Source: Nostoc sp. TH1S01 | GTDB taxonomy: Bacteria > Cyanobacteriota > Cyanobacteriia > Cyanobacteriales > Nostocaceae | NCBI GenBank assembly: GCA_018993265.1 | Contig: JAGKSW010000060.1 | Location: 1-43,481 of the forward strand | DNA: 43,481 bases | Direction of reading: 5' to 3' | Shown here: positions 27,055 through 34,641 of the stretch, one piece after another | How positions within the stretch are numbered: position 1 is the first letter of the stretch | How the letters are laid out: the number at the start of each line of letters is the position of its first letter | Position numbers and translations under genes: made by a program | The notes under the pieces: model-generated | What the model was told of the DNA's origin: nothing | Database searches by the model: none | What the model saw: only the letters and a program-made list of their open reading frames with translations

Positions 27055-28761
27055 ATGGAAGGAAAATTTAAATTAGAGTTACCTACCAGAACAGGTGGAA
27101 AAGAAGAGTTATCAACTAATAGTAGTTTGTTATTTATCGGTGCTAATGGCTCAGGAAAAACTCGATTAGGCGTTTGGATTGACTCAGAACATCCAGAAAA
27201 GGTACATCGTATTTCAGCACAAAAGTCATTATCAATGCCAGACACAACAATACCTATATCTATCAACCAAGCAAAGCTTGCTTTGCTTTGTGGATATGCG
27301 GGTGTTAATGATGATAATTTTAGTCAAAATTACAAATCTCATAAAAATAGTCAGCGATGGCAGAACAAACCAGCTATTGCGTTACTGAACGATTTTGACA
27401 AATTAATGAGTTATCTGTTTTCTGAAGAAACGGAGAACAATGCAGAATACCGGAACGCAGCAAAAGCAAGTAAAGAACGTATAGAACCTCCTACAACTAA
27501 ACTCGATCAGGTAAAAAAGGTATGGGAGAAAATTCTTCCTCATCGAGAATTAATTATTAGTGGTTTAGAGATAAAAACTAAAGTTCGAGACTCCTTAGAC
27601 GACAGGTATAACTCTTCTGAAATGAGTGACGGAGAAAGGGTTATATTCTACCTAATTGGCCAATGTCTTGCAGCACCTGAAAATGGTATTATTATTATTG
27701 ACGAGCCAGAGATTCATTTACACAAATCTATTCAAGCTCCTTTGTGGGCTGAAATTGAAAAATTACGCCCAGACTGTCTTTTTGTATATCTTACTCATGA
27801 CATAGATTTTGCCACAGCACAAGAAAGTGCAGGAAAAATATGGCTAAAGTCATATGATGGTAATAATTGGGATTGGCAACGGATTGAAAAGGTAGATGGT
27901 TTACCAGAAGAATTAGTTATCCAAATCCTTGGTAGTAGAAAGAATGTCGTTTTCGTTGAAGGCGAAAATGGCAAATTTGATGCAACCTTTTACAGATCAC
28001 TACTTAGTAATTTTCTTGTAATTCCACTGGGTAGTTGTACACAAGTTATCCAATCTGTTAAAGCTCTTAGAGCTAGTAATCAACTCCATCATTTGGAGAT
28101 TTATGGCATTATTGATAGAGACCGAAGAGTTGAAAATGAAATTAGACAACTTTTGAACGATGGCATTTACGTTCTAGAAGTCGCTGAAGTAGAAAACTTG
28201 TTTTTGACTCCTGAAATTTTAGACCTTGTTAGCCAAAGACTTGCAAGAAATCCCGACGATGATTTTAAAAAAGTTTCTGATTTGGTTTTCAAACAACTTA
28301 AATCAGAAATAGAAACGCAAATATCACTAAGAACTGTTAATGAAATCAAATTTAGATTAAATCTATTTGGCGACAAATCTAAACTTCAAGAAGCTGACGA
28401 CAAATCTAAAGAGGAGATAAAACTTCAAGAAGCTGACGGCAAATCCAAAGAGGAGATAAAACTTCAAAAAGCTTTGGATAATCTTGTTAAAGGTATTAAT
28501 ATATCTGACATTTATAACTCTAGCAAGATCATTTTTGAAAAAATAATCGAAACGAAAAATTACAAAGATTTACTAAAGTATTTCAATCGTAAAACATTGG
28601 CTAAACAGGTGAGCGAATGTTTCGAGTTCAAAAATGGTAAAAGCGATGAACCTGGTCAACTTATTGAATTTGTTGTTAGACTGGCCAAAAGTAGTGACCA
28701 AGATGAAATTAAAAATCGGTTGAAAAGATACTTTGGTGAGTTTTCTCAGCACATGGACTAA
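27055..28761 (+). CDS. ABC-type ATPase fused to DUF4435 (TOPRIM-like), PARIS-like
   Basis: A 568-residue protein. Residues 1-290 are an SMC/ABC-type ATPase: Walker A GANGSGKT (29-36), signature MSDGE (190-194), Walker B IIIIDEPE (about 212-219), switch His in YLTHDID. Residues of about 293-568 match DUF4435: VFVEGENGKFDATFY with Glu302, then IIDRDRR with Asp354 and Asp356, then EVENLFL, as in TOPRIM nucleases. These are the AriA and AriB domains of the PARIS phage defence system, here in one chain as in its merged forms. Residues 443-473 contain a 13-residue tandem repeat. The neighbouring operon is convergent. An OLD/Gabija-like label is the main alternative. Confidence 0.75.
   Translation: MEGKFKLELPTRTGGKEELSTNSSLLFIGANGSGKTRLGVWIDSEHPEKVHRISAQKSLSMPDTTIPISINQAKLALLCGYAGVNDDNFSQNYKSHKNSQRWQNKPAIALLNDFDKLMSYLFSEETENNAEYRNAAKASKERIEPPTTKLDQVKKVWEKILPHRELIISGLEIKTKVRDSLDDRYNSSEMSDGERVIFYLIGQCLAAPENGIIIIDEPEIHLHKSIQAPLWAEIEKLRPDCLFVYLTHDIDFATAQESAGKIWLKSYDGNNWDWQRIEKVDGLPEELVIQILGSRKNVVFVEGENGKFDATFYRSLLSNFLVIPLGSCTQVIQSVKALRASNQLHHLEIYGIIDRDRRVENEIRQLLNDGIYVLEVAEVENLFLTPEILDLVSQRLARNPDDDFKKVSDLVFKQLKSEIETQISLRTVNEIKFRLNLFGDKSKLQEADDKSKEEIKLQEADGKSKEEIKLQKALDNLVKGINISDIYNSSKIIFEKIIETKNYKDLLKYFNRKTLAKQVSECFEFKNGKSDEPGQLIEFVVRLAKSSDQDEIKNRLKRYFGEFSQHMD
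28381..28473 (+). repeat. In-frame 39-bp tandem repeat
   Basis: Two nearly identical 39-base units (28381-28419 and 28420-28458) plus the beginning of a third, encoding the 13-residue unit KLQEADDKSKEEI. Copy number changes here would lengthen the linker without shifting the frame. Confidence 0.85.
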
Positions 28762-28849: not shown

Positions 28850-29581
28850 CTAATCATCTAAGTATAAATTTTCTATGATCTCAAGCATTTTTTTCTCACC
28901 TATACCTTTCTGCATTTTTTTTCCATGAGGAATTTTAACTCTCTCTATTACATCTTGTAATGATTGAAACTGCTTTTTTTCGCGTTCATCTATTACTAAT
29001 GCTGCGATCCGATTAGCTCTTTTTGGTTGCAATCCAGTATTCCGTAGTTTAGCAGCAATTTTATCTACACTTAATTTTTTAAAAAACTCTAAAGGTTCAA
29101 CCTTATCATTTAGCTTCTTTCTAAGCTCTTTGTTTTCATTTTCTAACTTTACTTTGGTTGTTGACTCCTCTAGTAATTGTTTAGCAAGCTTATCTAAGCG
29201 AGATTCTAAATTGTTTAAAAATTTCTCTAAATCTTCTGAAGTTAAATTTATCTTTTCTGAAGCCTCATCTTTTTGCTTTCTAAATAATTCAACTTGCTTA
29301 GTTAAATTTTCCTCATTTTCAGGCTCAATAATAAATACGCCAATCATCTCACCTTTACGTGGATCTATTTCTCTAGCTCTAGCCGCAGCATAATACTCAA
29401 AATCTCCATCTACAACTTCATAAGATTGCAAACCATTTCTGCGAACTACGATAGGGTTAATGACTCCTTCAGAATCTAAAATCAACTGAGCAGCCTTTTC
29501 TAAATCATCCTCTACAAAAAGAGAGCGGGGAGTATTAGAAGTAATTTTTTTGATAGCAACAAGTGATGTGGATAATTTCAT
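28850..29581 (-). CDS. ParB-like N-terminal domain protein with coiled coil and helix-hairpin-helix end
   Basis: The 243 residues are in three parts. Residues of about 10-75 match the ParB/Srx fold (INPIVVRRNGLQSYEVVDGDFEYYAAARA). At the position of the canonical CTP-binding G-E-R-R motif it has GDFE, so CTPase activity is doubtful. Residues of about 95-160 are a charged coiled coil (LEKFLNNLESRLDKLAKQLLEE). The end (KQFQSLQDVIERVKIPHGKKM, KGIGEKKMLEIIENL) looks like a helix-hairpin-helix DNA-binding unit. The start ATG overlaps the stop of the nuclease-ParA gene by one base (TAATG), implying coupled translation and a shared complex. It lacks the usual ParB central HTH. Confidence 0.75.
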   Translation of the reverse strand: MKLSTSLVAIKKITSNTPRSLFVEDDLEKAAQLILDSEGVINPIVVRRNGLQSYEVVDGDFEYYAAARAREIDPRKGEMIGVFIIEPENEENLTKQVELFRKQKDEASEKINLTSEDLEKFLNNLESRLDKLAKQLLEESTTKVKLENENKELRKKLNDKVEPLEFFKKLSVDKIAAKLRNTGLQPKRANRIAALVIDEREKKQFQSLQDVIERVKIPHGKKMQKGIGEKKMLEIIENLYLDD

Positions 29582-30945
29582 TAAGCCATCCTGATTTTTT
29601 GTAATACTTCTATAGCTAGTAGCTGAAATTCCTGCGCTGATGTTGAATCAGGTTTAAAATCTAGCACTGAGATAGGATCAGCTATCTCCATATCTCCAAT
29701 AATTTGAATTTTCTCTGCACACTTAGCCAAATCATCTCTTTCGTAAATCACAGTATCCATTACATCAACACCATATCTGCTAGAAATTTTTTCTATGCGA
29801 TTCTTTAAGGTTGATTGCACAAACCTAGCATTTGTTGATATTTTACAAGGTAAAACACCTATAACTTCAATTGTCGATTTCCTAATCTGTTTTCTAAACG
29901 CATTAATAGTTTTGATAAATTCTTTAACATTAGTTAGTCCTTGATTAGCAAATGGTTTTAAATCAGATGGAATAATAAGATAATCTGCGGCTATCAAGGC
30001 AATTTTGGCATACAAGTTTAAAGAAGGTGGAGTGTCAATGAGTACGATATCATATTCATTTTTAACTTCTTCTAGTTTCTCAATTAGTATCAGTCGGCTG
30101 TAATCAAGTGCATTTAGTTCTGATTCTTGTCTAATCAAATCTATATGTGCAGGAACGACATAAATTTCTGGATTACTAAAATTAGATTTTCTAGCAACTT
30201 CTGAAATGGGATAAAAATCTTCTGATGATAATACATGAAAAATATTAGAATCTTTAATATCATCGAATTCTTCATCATCAAATTTAACTAAACCAGTAGC
30301 AAAGGTAGTATTCGCCTGACTATCTAAGTCAATTACTAAAACTCTTTTGCCTTTCTTTCTAATAGCAGCAGCTAGATTCACTACAGTGGTAGTTTTTCCT
30401 ACTCCGCCTTTATTATGGTAGACAGCAATGATTTTCATTGAATATTGCTCCTTGATTTCAACTTGATAACTATTTGGAATTACTGAAGGTTTTATTTTCT
30501 CCAGAGGTTCATTATTCTTCAAACTATCTCTACCAATCAAAGCTTTAATTTCTTCTAGTTTTGTCTCTACATCCTTCCCGGAACAAGAAAAAACCAAATT
30601 AACATCATTGCCTAATTTTTCATAAATTTTAATTTCTTTGCCGTTAGTTAATAATCCATATCTCACATTTAAGCTGGTTAAATAATGCCTAATCCTAAGA
30701 AAGTGATTATTTAAGTTCTGTTTAGGATGCTTTGCTTCCATCACCACACTCAATGGAGAGTTAGCATCAATGACAAAAGGTAAGACTTGTGCCGCAAATG
30801 CTAGAAAATCTAAGCGGATGCTACCAACAGCAACTTCTTGATGCCAAGTATCTGGTGTATATCCAAGCTGTGGTAGCAAATATTGAACGATGAGTTTGCT
30901 TTCAACTTCGCTTTCATTACGGCACAACTCAGGATTGAAAGCCAA
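29581..30945 (-). CDS. HsdR_N-like PD-(D/E)XK nuclease domain fused to ParA ATPase
   Basis: The 454 residues hold two domains. Residues 1-115 resemble the N-terminal nuclease domain of type I restriction HsdR: Glu15 in ESEVESKLIVQYLLPQLGY, Asp46 in IRLDFLAF, Glu70 and Lys72 in VVMEAKHP, a complete PD-(D/E)XK set, then YGLLTNGKEIKIYE. Residues 170-454 are a full ParA/Soj ATPase: deviant Walker A KGGVGKTTT (179-187), VLVIDLDSQANTT, and YDIVLIDTPPSL. GAGG precedes the first ATG by about seven bases. An internal ATG (30438, Met170) has AAGGAG (30448-30453) nine bases before it, so a free ParA may also be made. Operon with the ParB-like gene. I know no characterised protein of this layout. Confidence 0.8.
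   Translation of the reverse strand: MAFNPELCRNESEVESKLIVQYLLPQLGYTPDTWHQEVAVGSIRLDFLAFAAQVLPFVIDANSPLSVVMEAKHPKQNLNNHFLRIRHYLTSLNVRYGLLTNGKEIKIYEKLGNDVNLVFSCSGKDVETKLEEIKALIGRDSLKNNEPLEKIKPSVIPNSYQVEIKEQYSMKIIAVYHNKGGVGKTTTVVNLAAAIRKKGKRVLVIDLDSQANTTFATGLVKFDDEEFDDIKDSNIFHVLSSEDFYPISEVARKSNFSNPEIYVVPAHIDLIRQESELNALDYSRLILIEKLEEVKNEYDIVLIDTPPSLNLYAKIALIAADYLIIPSDLKPFANQGLTNVKEFIKTINAFRKQIRKSTIEVIGVLPCKISTNARFVQSTLKNRIEKISSRYGVDVMDTVIYERDDLAKCAEKIQIIGDMEIADPISVLDFKPDSTSAQEFQLLAIEVLQKIRMA
30438..30453 (-). promoter_or_regulatory. Internal ribosome binding site and ATG at the ParA domain
   Basis: On the minus strand AAGGAG (30448-30453) is followed nine bases later by ATG (30436-30438), which encodes Met170, the first residue of the ParA fold (MKIIAVYHNKGGVGKTT). 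It is a stronger Shine-Dalgarno match than that of most genes in this window. Confidence 0.6.
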
Positions 30946-31278: not shown

Positions 31279-32163
31279 ATGGGATATGTAATTGCTACTG
31301 CAAATATGAAAGGCGGTGTTGGGAAAACTACTCTCACCGTCAATTTAGCAACTTGTTTGGCGAAAAATCATGGTAAGCGCGTGCTTGTCTTAGATTTAGA
31401 TACTCAAATCAGCGCCACACTCAGTCTGATGTCGCCTTTAGAGTTTGCCAAGCGTCGCAAACAAAGACTGACGTTTAGATATTTAATCGATGATGTTATC
31501 AATCCAGATCCCAATAGTAAGGTAACAATTAACGATATTATTCAAACCCAAGTCTGTGGACTCCCCGAACTTAATTTATTACCAGGGGATATCGATTTAT
31601 ATGATGAGTTTGTTGTGTCAGAAATGCTGCACAAACAAACAGTTGCTTTTGGTGAACAAAACTTTGAAACTGTTTGGAATCGGTTTGAAAGAGTTTTGTT
31701 AAATAACATTTTAAAACCCGTACGTGATCAATATGATTTTATTCTTTTAGATTGCGCTCCTGGTTATAATTTGCTAACTCGCAGTGCTTTAGCTGCTAGT
31801 GATTTTTACATTCTACCCGCCAAGCCAGAACCTTTATCTGTAGTGGGAATTCAACTTTTAGAAAGACGCATCGGCCAGTTAAAAGATAGTCACGAACAAG
31901 AAGCAAAAATAAATATCAAAATGTTGGGAATTGTTTTTAGTATGTGCAATACTAATTTGCTTACTGGCAGATATTACAAACAAGTTATGCACCGCGTTGT
32001 GGAAGATTTTGGTGTAGAACAAATTTGTAAGGCACAAATCCCAGTTGATATTAATGTGGCTAAAGCTGTTGATAGTTTTATGCCGGCTGTTTTGAATGCA
32101 CCTCAATCTGCTGGTTCTAAAGCATTTTTGCAGTTAACTCAAGAGTTGTTGCAGAAACTGTAG
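31279..32163 (+). CDS. Orphan ParA-family ATPase
   Basis: A 294-residue Soj/MinD-like ATPase with deviant Walker A MKGGVGKTT (10-18), A' motif VLVLDLDTQISATLS, and Walker B YDFILLDCAPG. It has a longer stretch after the A' motif (about residues 50-90) than the ParA domain of the neighbouring fusion, so it is not a recent duplicate. There is no ParB beside it on this strand. AGAGGA eight bases before the ATG supports the start. It may position an unknown cargo; a role with the following RHH-like and HNH genes is only suggested by order. Confidence 0.88.
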   Translation: MGYVIATANMKGGVGKTTLTVNLATCLAKNHGKRVLVLDLDTQISATLSLMSPLEFAKRRKQRLTFRYLIDDVINPDPNSKVTINDIIQTQVCGLPELNLLPGDIDLYDEFVVSEMLHKQTVAFGEQNFETVWNRFERVLLNNILKPVRDQYDFILLDCAPGYNLLTRSALAASDFYILPAKPEPLSVVGIQLLERRIGQLKDSHEQEAKINIKMLGIVFSMCNTNLLTGRYYKQVMHRVVEDFGVEQICKAQIPVDINVAKAVDSFMPAVLNAPQSAGSKAFLQLTQELLQKL

Positions 32164-32724: not shown

Positions 32725-33156
32725 GTGTCTAAATACATTCCTGAAAGTTTAAAAACTCAAATAGCTGTTATTGATAAAGGGCGTTGTTGTTATTGCTTAA
32801 CTACTGAAGCTAATAGCGGTATTCCCATGAGTTACGATCATATTCAACCCCGTTCAAAAGGTGGTGAAACTACCTTGAATAATTTTTGTTTGGCTTGTCG
32901 TTCTTGCAATGAATTTAAAGCTGATGCAACAGAAGCCATAGATCCTTTGAGTGGAGAAACAACGCCTCTATTTAATCCACGTCAACAAAAATGGTCTGAA
33001 CATTTTACTTGGAATTATAATGCTACAAAAGTTGAAGGTTTAACTACTATTGGTAGGGCTACAATTGTTTGTTTACGAATGAATAATCCAGTTATAGTTG
33101 TTGCCCGACGACGTTGGACAATTAGTGGTTGGCATCCTCCTGATGATGTATTTTAA
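32725..33156 (+). CDS. HNH endonuclease
   Basis: The 143 residues start at GTG (32725). They carry an HNH/zinc finger: CCYC, then YDHIQPRSKGGETTLNNFCLACRSCNEFKAD, with both CxxC zinc ligands, the metal-site Asp-His and the Asn. The C-terminal half (TTPLFNPRQQKWSEHFTW, RATIVCLRMNNPVIV) is the extension found in cyanobacterial HNH proteins. It is likely a DNA nuclease. Coupled to the preceding RHH-like gene. Confidence 0.85.
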   Translation: MSKYIPESLKTQIAVIDKGRCCYCLTTEANSGIPMSYDHIQPRSKGGETTLNNFCLACRSCNEFKADATEAIDPLSGETTPLFNPRQQKWSEHFTWNYNATKVEGLTTIGRATIVCLRMNNPVIVVARRRWTISGWHPPDDVF

Positions 33157-33574: not shown

Positions 33575-33784
33575 ATGACTCCAGAGCAAGAGCAAGCCCT
33601 TCAAGAACACATTCAGGCGATCGCGAAAATATTATACGAAGATACAGCACCAGAAAAGCTAACAAGTCTTGCGGGGATTGAACAAGCAGTGCGAAGTCAA
33701 ATGCAGAAGCATGTCATGCCAAAAGTAGGGGTTTTTTTATCGAAACGATTACAGGAACAACAGCAGGATACCAACGGAGACTAA
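33575..33784 (+). CDS. ISKra4-type transposase, first frame
   Basis: The 69 residues (MTPEQEQALQEHIQAIAKILYE...) are the N-terminal helical part of the transposase. The zero frame stops at 33782-33784. Before that, at 33733-33739, lies the slippery heptamer T-TTT-TTA in the correct phase; a -1 slip there joins this frame to the next one, giving the usual family sequence F-F-I-E-T-I-T-G-T-T-A-G-Y-Q-R-R-L-K-S. The full transposase is therefore probably a frameshift product of both frames. Confidence 0.75.
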   Translation: MTPEQEQALQEHIQAIAKILYEDTAPEKLTSLAGIEQAVRSQMQKHVMPKVGVFLSKRLQEQQQDTNGD

Positions 33785-33792
33785 AAAGCATC

Positions 33793-34641
33793 TTGGGAGA
33801 GTTACCCATAACCAGCAAACAAGCGATAGAGTTAGAAGTTGAACCGAGTAGTCAATTAAGTCCATATCTAGAAACTTGCTGTTTACGGGTAAGTGCGAAT
33901 GTCAGCTATGAAAGTGCAGCATCAGATATCGAGTACTTTACAGGTATAAAAGTTTCGCGCAGCAGTCAACAACGATTAGTCCATCGCCAGAACTTTGAAT
34001 TGCCAACACAACAACAGACAGTAGAAGAATTAAGTGTTGATGGCGGAAACATCCGTGTGCGAACTCCTCAAGGTGAAATATGTTCCTGGCTGGGCTATAA
34101 AGCGATCAGCTTACATCATCTAGGGATGGTGGGAACTTCATTTCAAGATAATCAGGTTGTGGTTAATTGGGTAAATGAGCAACCATTAGCTAGTACTCTC
34201 ACTTGTATCGGTGATGGACACGACGGCATTTGGAATATCGTTGAACAACTAGCCCCGAATACACAGCGTCGAGAAGTACTTGATTGGTTCCATTTAATCG
34301 AGAACCTCCACAAAGCTGGGGGTTCGCTCAAACGCTTGAAACAAGCGCGAGCTTTTCTCTGGAAGGGTCAAGTTGAGGAGACTAAAGCCTTATTTGCTCA
34401 TTGCAAAGGTAAACACGCCCAGAATTTTTGCCGTTACCTTGATAAGCATCGCGATCGCATTATCAATTATCAGTACCATCAAGCTGAACAGATTTGTTCA
34501 ATTGGGTCTGGGTCGGTTGAATCTGCTGTTAAACGGGTTGACCGTCGAACTAAGATATCTGGAGCGCAATGGAAACAGGAAAATGTGCCTCAAGTCCTTG
34601 CCCATCGTTGTGCCTACCTCAATGGATTATTGTCTGTTTGA
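33793..34641 (+). CDS. ISKra4-type transposase, second frame (catalytic part)
   Basis: The 282 residues contain the RNase-H-like catalytic core: a first Asp probably in VEELSVDGGNIRVR, then TCIGDGHDGIWN, EVLDWFHLIENLH, and the closing Glu region IGSGSVESAVKRVDRRTKISGAQW. The frame remains open upstream of 33793 as far as the slip site, and the annotated TTG is not a convincing start, which supports expression through -1 frameshifting. It appears intact to the C-terminus (LAHRCAYLNGLL). Confidence 0.82.
   Translation: MGELPITSKQAIELEVEPSSQLSPYLETCCLRVSANVSYESAASDIEYFTGIKVSRSSQQRLVHRQNFELPTQQQTVEELSVDGGNIRVRTPQGEICSWLGYKAISLHHLGMVGTSFQDNQVVVNWVNEQPLASTLTCIGDGHDGIWNIVEQLAPNTQRREVLDWFHLIENLHKAGGSLKRLKQARAFLWKGQVEETKALFAHCKGKHAQNFCRYLDKHRDRIINYQYHQAEQICSIGSGSVESAVKRVDRRTKISGAQWKQENVPQVLAHRCAYLNGLLSV

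Follow-up and report, generated by a model that had tools for sequence, protein, structure and literature searches.

What is a nuclease-type domain doing on a ParA protein? To our knowledge, the established work of ParA proteins is to move DNA and other cargo, and cutting is no part of it. On the reverse strand of the DNA analysed here (the window, 43,481 nucleotides of Nostoc sp. TH1S01), gene A (29581..30945; 454 aa, TTG start) joins an HsdR_N-like PD-(D/E)XK domain to a ParA ATPase. Gene B (28850..29581, reverse strand; 243 aa) encodes a ParB_N fold, a coiled coil and a C-terminal HhH, and its start overlaps the stop of gene A by one base (TAATG). The A/B pair is a real, conserved two-gene family, frequent among the filamentous cyanobacterial relatives of Nostoc. 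Its architecture and the selection acting on it are solidly established; for its function we propose a candidate explanation.

The nuclease-like domain of A (the N-domain) covers residues 1-144 (30514..30945, reverse strand) on the evidence of Pfam, conservation and dN/dS. In Pfam, residues 17-110 score as HSDR_N_2 (25.8 bits, cutoff 25; E 1.2e-5) and residues 170-349 as the ParA-type AAA_31 (E 1e-57). The ParA domain (29581..30438, reverse strand) is supported by Pfam, alignment and a fold match, and its K179, K184, D208 and D304 are invariant in a 32-row alignment (A3), as in a Walker-type ATPase of the ParA kind. An earlier note, made from the letters of the window, had described this fusion with E15 (30901-30903), D46 (30808-30810), E70 (30736-30738) and K72 (30730-30732, all reverse strand) in the nuclease part and K184 in the ATPase, and each residue lies where it was placed.

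The catalytic residues are also conserved in homologues, and their loss is seen only in one protein (L124). D46, E70 and K72 are kept in 39 of 39 fused orthologues and E15 in 38 of 39. This set comprises the window protein and 38 relatives at about 52-90% identity; both domains had to be open, which left out 14 more ORFs that are partial, split or unfused. The same three residues stay invariant when six proteins of a second clade join the N-domain alignment (24 of 24 rows; L124 lies outside this alignment). They are among the ten invariant N-domain columns across two clades whose N-domains are approximately 25% identical. Judged from the sequences, the conserved D/ExK pattern in the N-domain exceeds chance. 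The N-domain dN/dS is 0.05-0.13 in all 12 pairs tried which, together with the invariance of the catalytic residues, indicates strong purifying selection on the N-domain.

The proposal of a nuclease fold in the N-terminus stands in part. In an AlphaFold2 model of A (mean pLDDT 86.5), residues 11-111 run in the order helix, three strands, helix, strands, which fits a PD-(D/E)XK core, and conservation and the model together place the D and ExK on the expected strands. A match to a solved nuclease did not follow. The 50 listed of 1292 Foldseek matches to the model are all ParA/MinD-type proteins (the ParA half matches Soj), and an N-domain sequence profile compared with solved structures gives a best E of 0.18, with BpuSI at 0.59 and a type I R subunit at 1.8, none of them convincing. 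The nuclease fold is therefore assigned from Pfam, the residues and the order of elements in the model. A shares the HSDR_N_2 domain and the intact D and ExK with HsdR_N proteins of Type I and related restriction endonucleases, but it lacks their SF2 motor and its ATPase is of the ParA type. Pfam detects no HsdR helicase motor in A, where the ParA domain is found instead and only a ResIII trace (E 0.065) falls on the P-loop, and no HsdM or HsdS partner among the eight window proteins scanned. We infer that A is likely to cleave DNA.

The coupled protein proposed to be ParB-like, with a coiled coil and an HhH, is equally real. ParB_N lies at residues 10-69 of B (29375..29554, reverse strand; 34.9 bits, cutoff 26.3), and in structure comparison the first half of an AlphaFold2 model of B (mean pLDDT 84.7) matches Noc, ParB and PadC. 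The C-terminal region (28862..29059, reverse strand) carries the HhH, which is weak in Pfam for the window protein (HHH_6, E 0.025, under the cutoff), better in the B family profile (AF1531, E 5e-5) and over the cutoff in the B protein of a Beggiatoa relative (HHH_3); some relatives have a Rho_N/SAP-type domain there. The GERR box of ParB is linked to CTP binding. In B an alignment with Noc shows it replaced, by GDFE in the window protein and mostly by G[HD][FL]E across 51 B sequences. No HTH_ParB match is found in B with Pfam, and the six HTH_ParB matches of this genome are on other contigs. The pair thus resembles the ParABS systems (Soj/Spo0J, plasmid ParA/ParB) in its ParA ATPase with intact motifs and in a partner with the ParB N-terminal fold encoded just downstream. 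It differs in the nuclease-type domain on ParA and in a partner that lacks the HTH and the GERR box and ends in HhH or Rho_N/SAP. It also shows no parS in the one region examined, is not found on plasmids and is not linked to the origin. B probably contacts A.

The earlier note called for a search of cyanobacterial genomes for the fused architecture and its neighbour. An open fused gene A was found in 39 of the 100 genomes searched (the window's own included). B is matched at E 0.001 in 51 of the 100 and has no match in about half, including 3 of the 11 of the genus. Other forms among these genomes are ParA alone with B, split, or frame-shifted. Across the phylum the B profile matches 59 of 292 cyanobacterial genomes at E 0.001, where we suspect that the weak matches include ordinary ParBs, and 44 at 1e-18 or better. 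A scan of named genomes listed 80 of 561 candidates, of which 38 were examined: 25 have an open fusion with a downstream B match, two are broken, one is at a contig end, four are ParA-only and six belong to the second clade. B is matched after A in all 25 of these open fused clade-1 loci, the match being partial in L110. Fusions also occur on metagenome contigs named Desulfobacteraceae (48% identity), Beggiatoa (51%) and Synergistaceae (41%), names that may reflect binning errors, above all for the 3-kb Synergistaceae contig. The Synergistaceae homologue (L124) lacks the catalytic D and ExK on sequence reading, with an N-terminal region of similar length and an open ParA; its B match is cut by the contig end. 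In L114 the N-domain is reduced to a piece ahead of open ParA and B.

The second clade (L129-L134) is 27-34% identical to the first and aligns with it over nearly the full length (hhalign E 2e-60). HSDR_N_2 is over the cutoff in both clade-2 proteins scanned with Pfam, and a ParB-like gene follows A in six of six loci. ParB_N is detected at E 0.05 or better, once over the cutoff, in four of the six partners and in the L064 relative, and Pfam does not find it in the partners of L131 and L133. The B profiles of the two clades align with a probability of 94.6 (E 7e-8). The clade-2 partners end in Rho_N (over the cutoff in L132, under it in L134), HeH (L129, under the cutoff) or HhH by eye; in clade 1, the B proteins of L052 and L088 have Rho_N over the cutoff as well. 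Clade-2 type B is matched in 37 of the 292 phylum genomes at E 0.001 and in 21 at 1e-18. In L085 and L086 a gene of this type lies downstream of B, near the clade-1 pair (B2-type matches in G060 and G092), so both partner types can co-occur.

Codon 170 (ATG, 30436..30438, reverse strand) is the first of the ParA domain and a proposed internal start for a free ParA of 285 aa. All 39 orthologues have a start codon here (ATG in 34, GTG in five), and no other such column was found in the alignment; the GTG rows cluster together in the ParA tree and so do not represent five events. In the window a Shine-Dalgarno-like AAGGAG (30448..30453, reverse strand) lies 9 bases ahead. Predicted anti-Shine-Dalgarno pairing before codon 170 averages -3.94 kcal/mol versus -1.35 elsewhere in the genes (p 5e-8, optimistic because the rows are related and not independent). 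Just upstream, AGG makes up 18 of 24 arginine codons, versus 105 of 754 elsewhere. By a strict motif test, a match of at least five bases precedes codon 170 in only 9 of 39 orthologues, and six of the 39 have no match, against a background of 4.4% of other codons with five or more matching bases. Five of seven unfused ParA ORFs have a first residue that aligns at window residue 170, those of L063 and L073 being 12 and about 15 residues longer. A start codon is found at the boundary between N-domain and ParA, or one codon off, in six of six clade-2 genes, and at the boundary in L117, L118 and L124. The start codon in 39 of 39 together with the frequent Shine-Dalgarno-like sequence suggests that a ParA without the nuclease may be a second product of A. 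An internal start of this kind, with its proposed role, would have a counterpart in McrBC, where an in-frame internal start lets mcrB give a long and a short product; the short one, McrB-S, can interfere with the long one, McrB-L (PMC3874153). By analogy the codon-170 product may resemble this short modulating form of McrB. McrBC also combines an NTPase with a PD-(D/E)XK nuclease, but there the NTPase forms AAA+ GTPase rings, the nuclease is on a separate subunit, and the short form lacks DNA binding rather than the nuclease.

The two halves of the locus have diverged to different degrees. Compared with the window, four loci of the same genus (L053, L059, L060, L071) are 89-91% identical in the N-domain, 55-67% in ParA and 35-45% in B, and their dS is 0.45-0.56 in the N-domain versus 1.13-1.57 in ParA. 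The closest relative, L041, shows no exchange (N-domain 88%, ParA 95%, B 67%; dS 0.74 in the N-domain and 0.56 in ParA). In 24 loci with the neighbouring gene C, identities correlate between C and N-domain (0.82) and between ParA and B (0.70), and not between N-domain and ParA (-0.02) or C and ParA (0.01). The decoupling is weaker over all 39 loci (N-domain and ParA 0.32, N-domain and B 0.58, ParA and B 0.74). In a ParA tree of 33 rows ten type-II rows separate with full SH-aLRT support, whereas the N-domain tree leaves them ungrouped; in an AU test the ParA type-II grouping is not rejected by the N-domain tree (p 0.079). The differences in identity and synonymous distance point to recombinational replacement of the 3' part of the locus, and recombination is the probable cause. 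The ParA domain and B seem to be swapped as a unit, with the nuclease domain ahead of them staying constant. This apparent joint exchange and the conservation of the start at codon 170 are new here.

Tentatively, and somewhat short of even confidence, we favour the explanation that A/B is a ParA-driven, B-targeted chromosomal DNA nuclease system, with foreign DNA as our likeliest guess at its target. The C-terminal HhH (or SAP/Rho_N) domain of B would hold DNA and the ParB-fold half of B would engage the ParA ATPase, while ATP-bound ParA dimers of A would sit on DNA. At a target marked by B, A would be gathered and its ATPase presumably triggered, so that two or more nuclease domains could meet and cut. 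Free ParA from the internal start would dilute the nuclease-bearing form and limit cutting, and joint exchange of the ParA domain and B would change recognition and leave the nuclease constant. This explanation is supported by the invariant D46, E70 and K72, the N-domain dN/dS, the intact ParA motifs and the presence of B after A. Further support comes from the codon 170 signals, the cassette exchange, the patchy distribution, the orthologues in contigs of other phyla, the loss of nuclease residues or domain while ParA stays open (L124, L114), and further nuclease or helicase modules adjoining or attached to the same kind of ParA-B, or adjoining gene C. Against it we count the lack of a clear excess of defence genes, of a depletion of plasmid-type ParBs and of a PADLOC model covering A/B, as well as the weaker 39-locus decoupling, L041, the AU result and the few strict Shine-Dalgarno matches. 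A little more doubtful is the broader view of an undescribed class of ParA-driven DNA interference, in which a ParB-like adaptor marks, a ParA-nuclease cuts, an internal-start ParA brakes and the ParA-B cassette is exchangeable, with two cyanobacterial clades and outliers in the contigs of three other bacterial lineages. If true, a conserved ParA-nuclease with its own ParB-like partner would link the fields of DNA segregation and DNA restriction. The predicted dual product of one gene and the exchangeable recognition cassette are direct, testable hypotheses. Given how often A/B occurs in the filamentous relatives of Nostoc, it may bear on the ease with which foreign DNA becomes established there.

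A complete ParA and ParB-like pair invites another explanation: A/B would partition or organise the DNA of the chromosome (or a domesticated element), and its nuclease-fold domain would make only rare cuts, such as to resolve tangled or surplus chromosomes in polyploid cells. We regard this as unlikely. It is favoured by the plasmid searches, in which neither A (at E 1e-60) nor B (at E 1e-5) has a match in 72,556 plasmid records. The N-domain (at E 1e-5) matches only two Thermus plasmid methylases in plasmids and phages, B is not found in the phage collections searched, and an origin of A/B from plasmids or phages was rejected on these searches. An HTH_ParB match is absent in 40 of 100 genomes, so these genomes need not have a canonical ParB, which also suits a partition role. 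So does position: A/B is often found at a recurrent chromosomal site beside gene C, a second, unfused ParA (31279..32163, forward strand) that is a frequent neighbour with unproven membership in the system (28 of 51 A/B loci), and sometimes also beside ileS (15 of 51). Gene C also turns up in each of the 31 further genomes searched, and B has no match in 27 of these, so C looks core and A/B accessory beside it. Partition is opposed by the lack of a B match in about half of the genomes, by the missing HTH and GERR box, and by the lack of a clear parS-like repeat in 18 aligned A-C intergenic regions, the only region examined, where promoter-like blocks alone are seen. The distance from A/B to dnaA spans 3-49% of the chromosome in 12 genomes (a set that includes G006, whose A is frame-shifted) and fits a uniform spread (p 0.68), on which origin-linked chromosomal partition was rejected.

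Classical anti-phage or anti-plasmid defence within a defence island, which the earlier note argued from an adjoining ATPase-DUF4435 gene, is unlikely. A/B is patchy, apparently exchanged and horizontally moved, and that gene is indeed a defence system: it matches PADLOC fused AriAB (PARIS) over its full length (27055..28761, forward strand; E 3e-185). It has no homologue in 50 relative loci, however, and PARIS was rejected as part of the A/B system; the two share only a neighbourhood and are different proteins. No PADLOC family is matched in more than 1 of 139 A/B neighbour ORFs (12 genomes), versus up to 3 of 138 in controls (138 of 170 ORFs, 10 of 12 regions). The families matched number 87 near A/B versus 62 in controls, counts that are silent on the number of different ORFs and make this a coarse scan. 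A defence island as a general feature of A/B thus finds no clear support. Nor does the anti-plasmid idea gain any, since carriers hold no fewer plasmid-type ParBs (2.03 per carrier, n=39, versus 1.15 per other genome, n=61; p 0.19) and plasmid exclusion is not seen. Distinctly unlikely is that the N-domain, without cutting, binds DNA or serves autoregulation, which would make A/B a device for regulation or positioning. The N-terminal HTH of type Ia plasmid ParA proteins gives precedent for an extension at this end of ParA that contacts DNA; L124 keeps a similar N-terminal length without the catalytic residues, and ParA-only forms with B exist. Such a role sits poorly with catalytic residues among the ten invariant columns across two clades, their loss being read in the one protein L124.

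The suggestion that no named system has this layout held up in Pfam, NCBIfam, PADLOC, PHROGs and the open-access literature searched, where no title or abstract describes the A/B architecture (preprints and most subscription papers lie outside that scope). No PADLOC model covers most of A or B; in A the matches are partial and confined to ParA (best PDC-M28B, E 3e-10), and B has a single one (ZorA, E 0.064). Osa, which we take to be a ParB/Srx protein used in conflicts between elements, and other ParB/Srx proteins resemble B in having this fold in a DNA-conflict setting, and we know of no ParA-nuclease partner for them. Nickase activity of ParB/Srx proteins in inter-element conflicts is cited in PMC12839542. 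Short peptide patterns, the sole kind of query used on IMG/VR, brought up a B-like stretch (L223, 62% over residues 1-112), in which no ORF of at least 80 aa matched B, and one other HsdR_N-type protein (L224).

Several further arrangements were seen around these genes. Two clusters, glycosyltransferases by eye, surround A/B in 17 and 13 of the 51 loci. Gene C is often near ileS, and no ParB-like gene of its own was noticed. A three-gene unit, recognised by gene sizes and with Pfam on L203 only, lies beside gene C in five (L203, L204, L205, L207, L209) of eight further C loci, which come from six genomes without a B match and from G010 and G044, where B is elsewhere. In L203 (8433-14026) its products are approximately 280 aa (weak winged-helix), 700 aa (AAA_16) and 870 aa, the last with a DEDD exonuclease, a Cas4-like PDDEXK_1 and an FtsK translocase; the L203 and L062 copies of this product partially match SspH/mad8. 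Clusters of this unit adjoin A/B in L055, L062, L069, L073 and L081, partially in the L055 and L081 stretches. In L064 (7774-10974) the ParA that accompanies the same B partner is joined to an SF1 helicase C-lobe, and L064 was rejected as an HsdR_N fusion because its ParA carries this helicase part; the ORF directly before that ParA has a helicase N-lobe and a weak DUF559/MTES_1575 nuclease-like start. In L063, L066 and L126 a gene for a pentapeptide-repeat protein of about 500 aa (repeats by eye) stands ahead of unfused ParA-B. Between gene C and ileS the window holds an HNH-nuclease gene (32725-33156; HNH, E 6.5e-9) and an ISKra4-type transposase in two ORFs (33575-34641).
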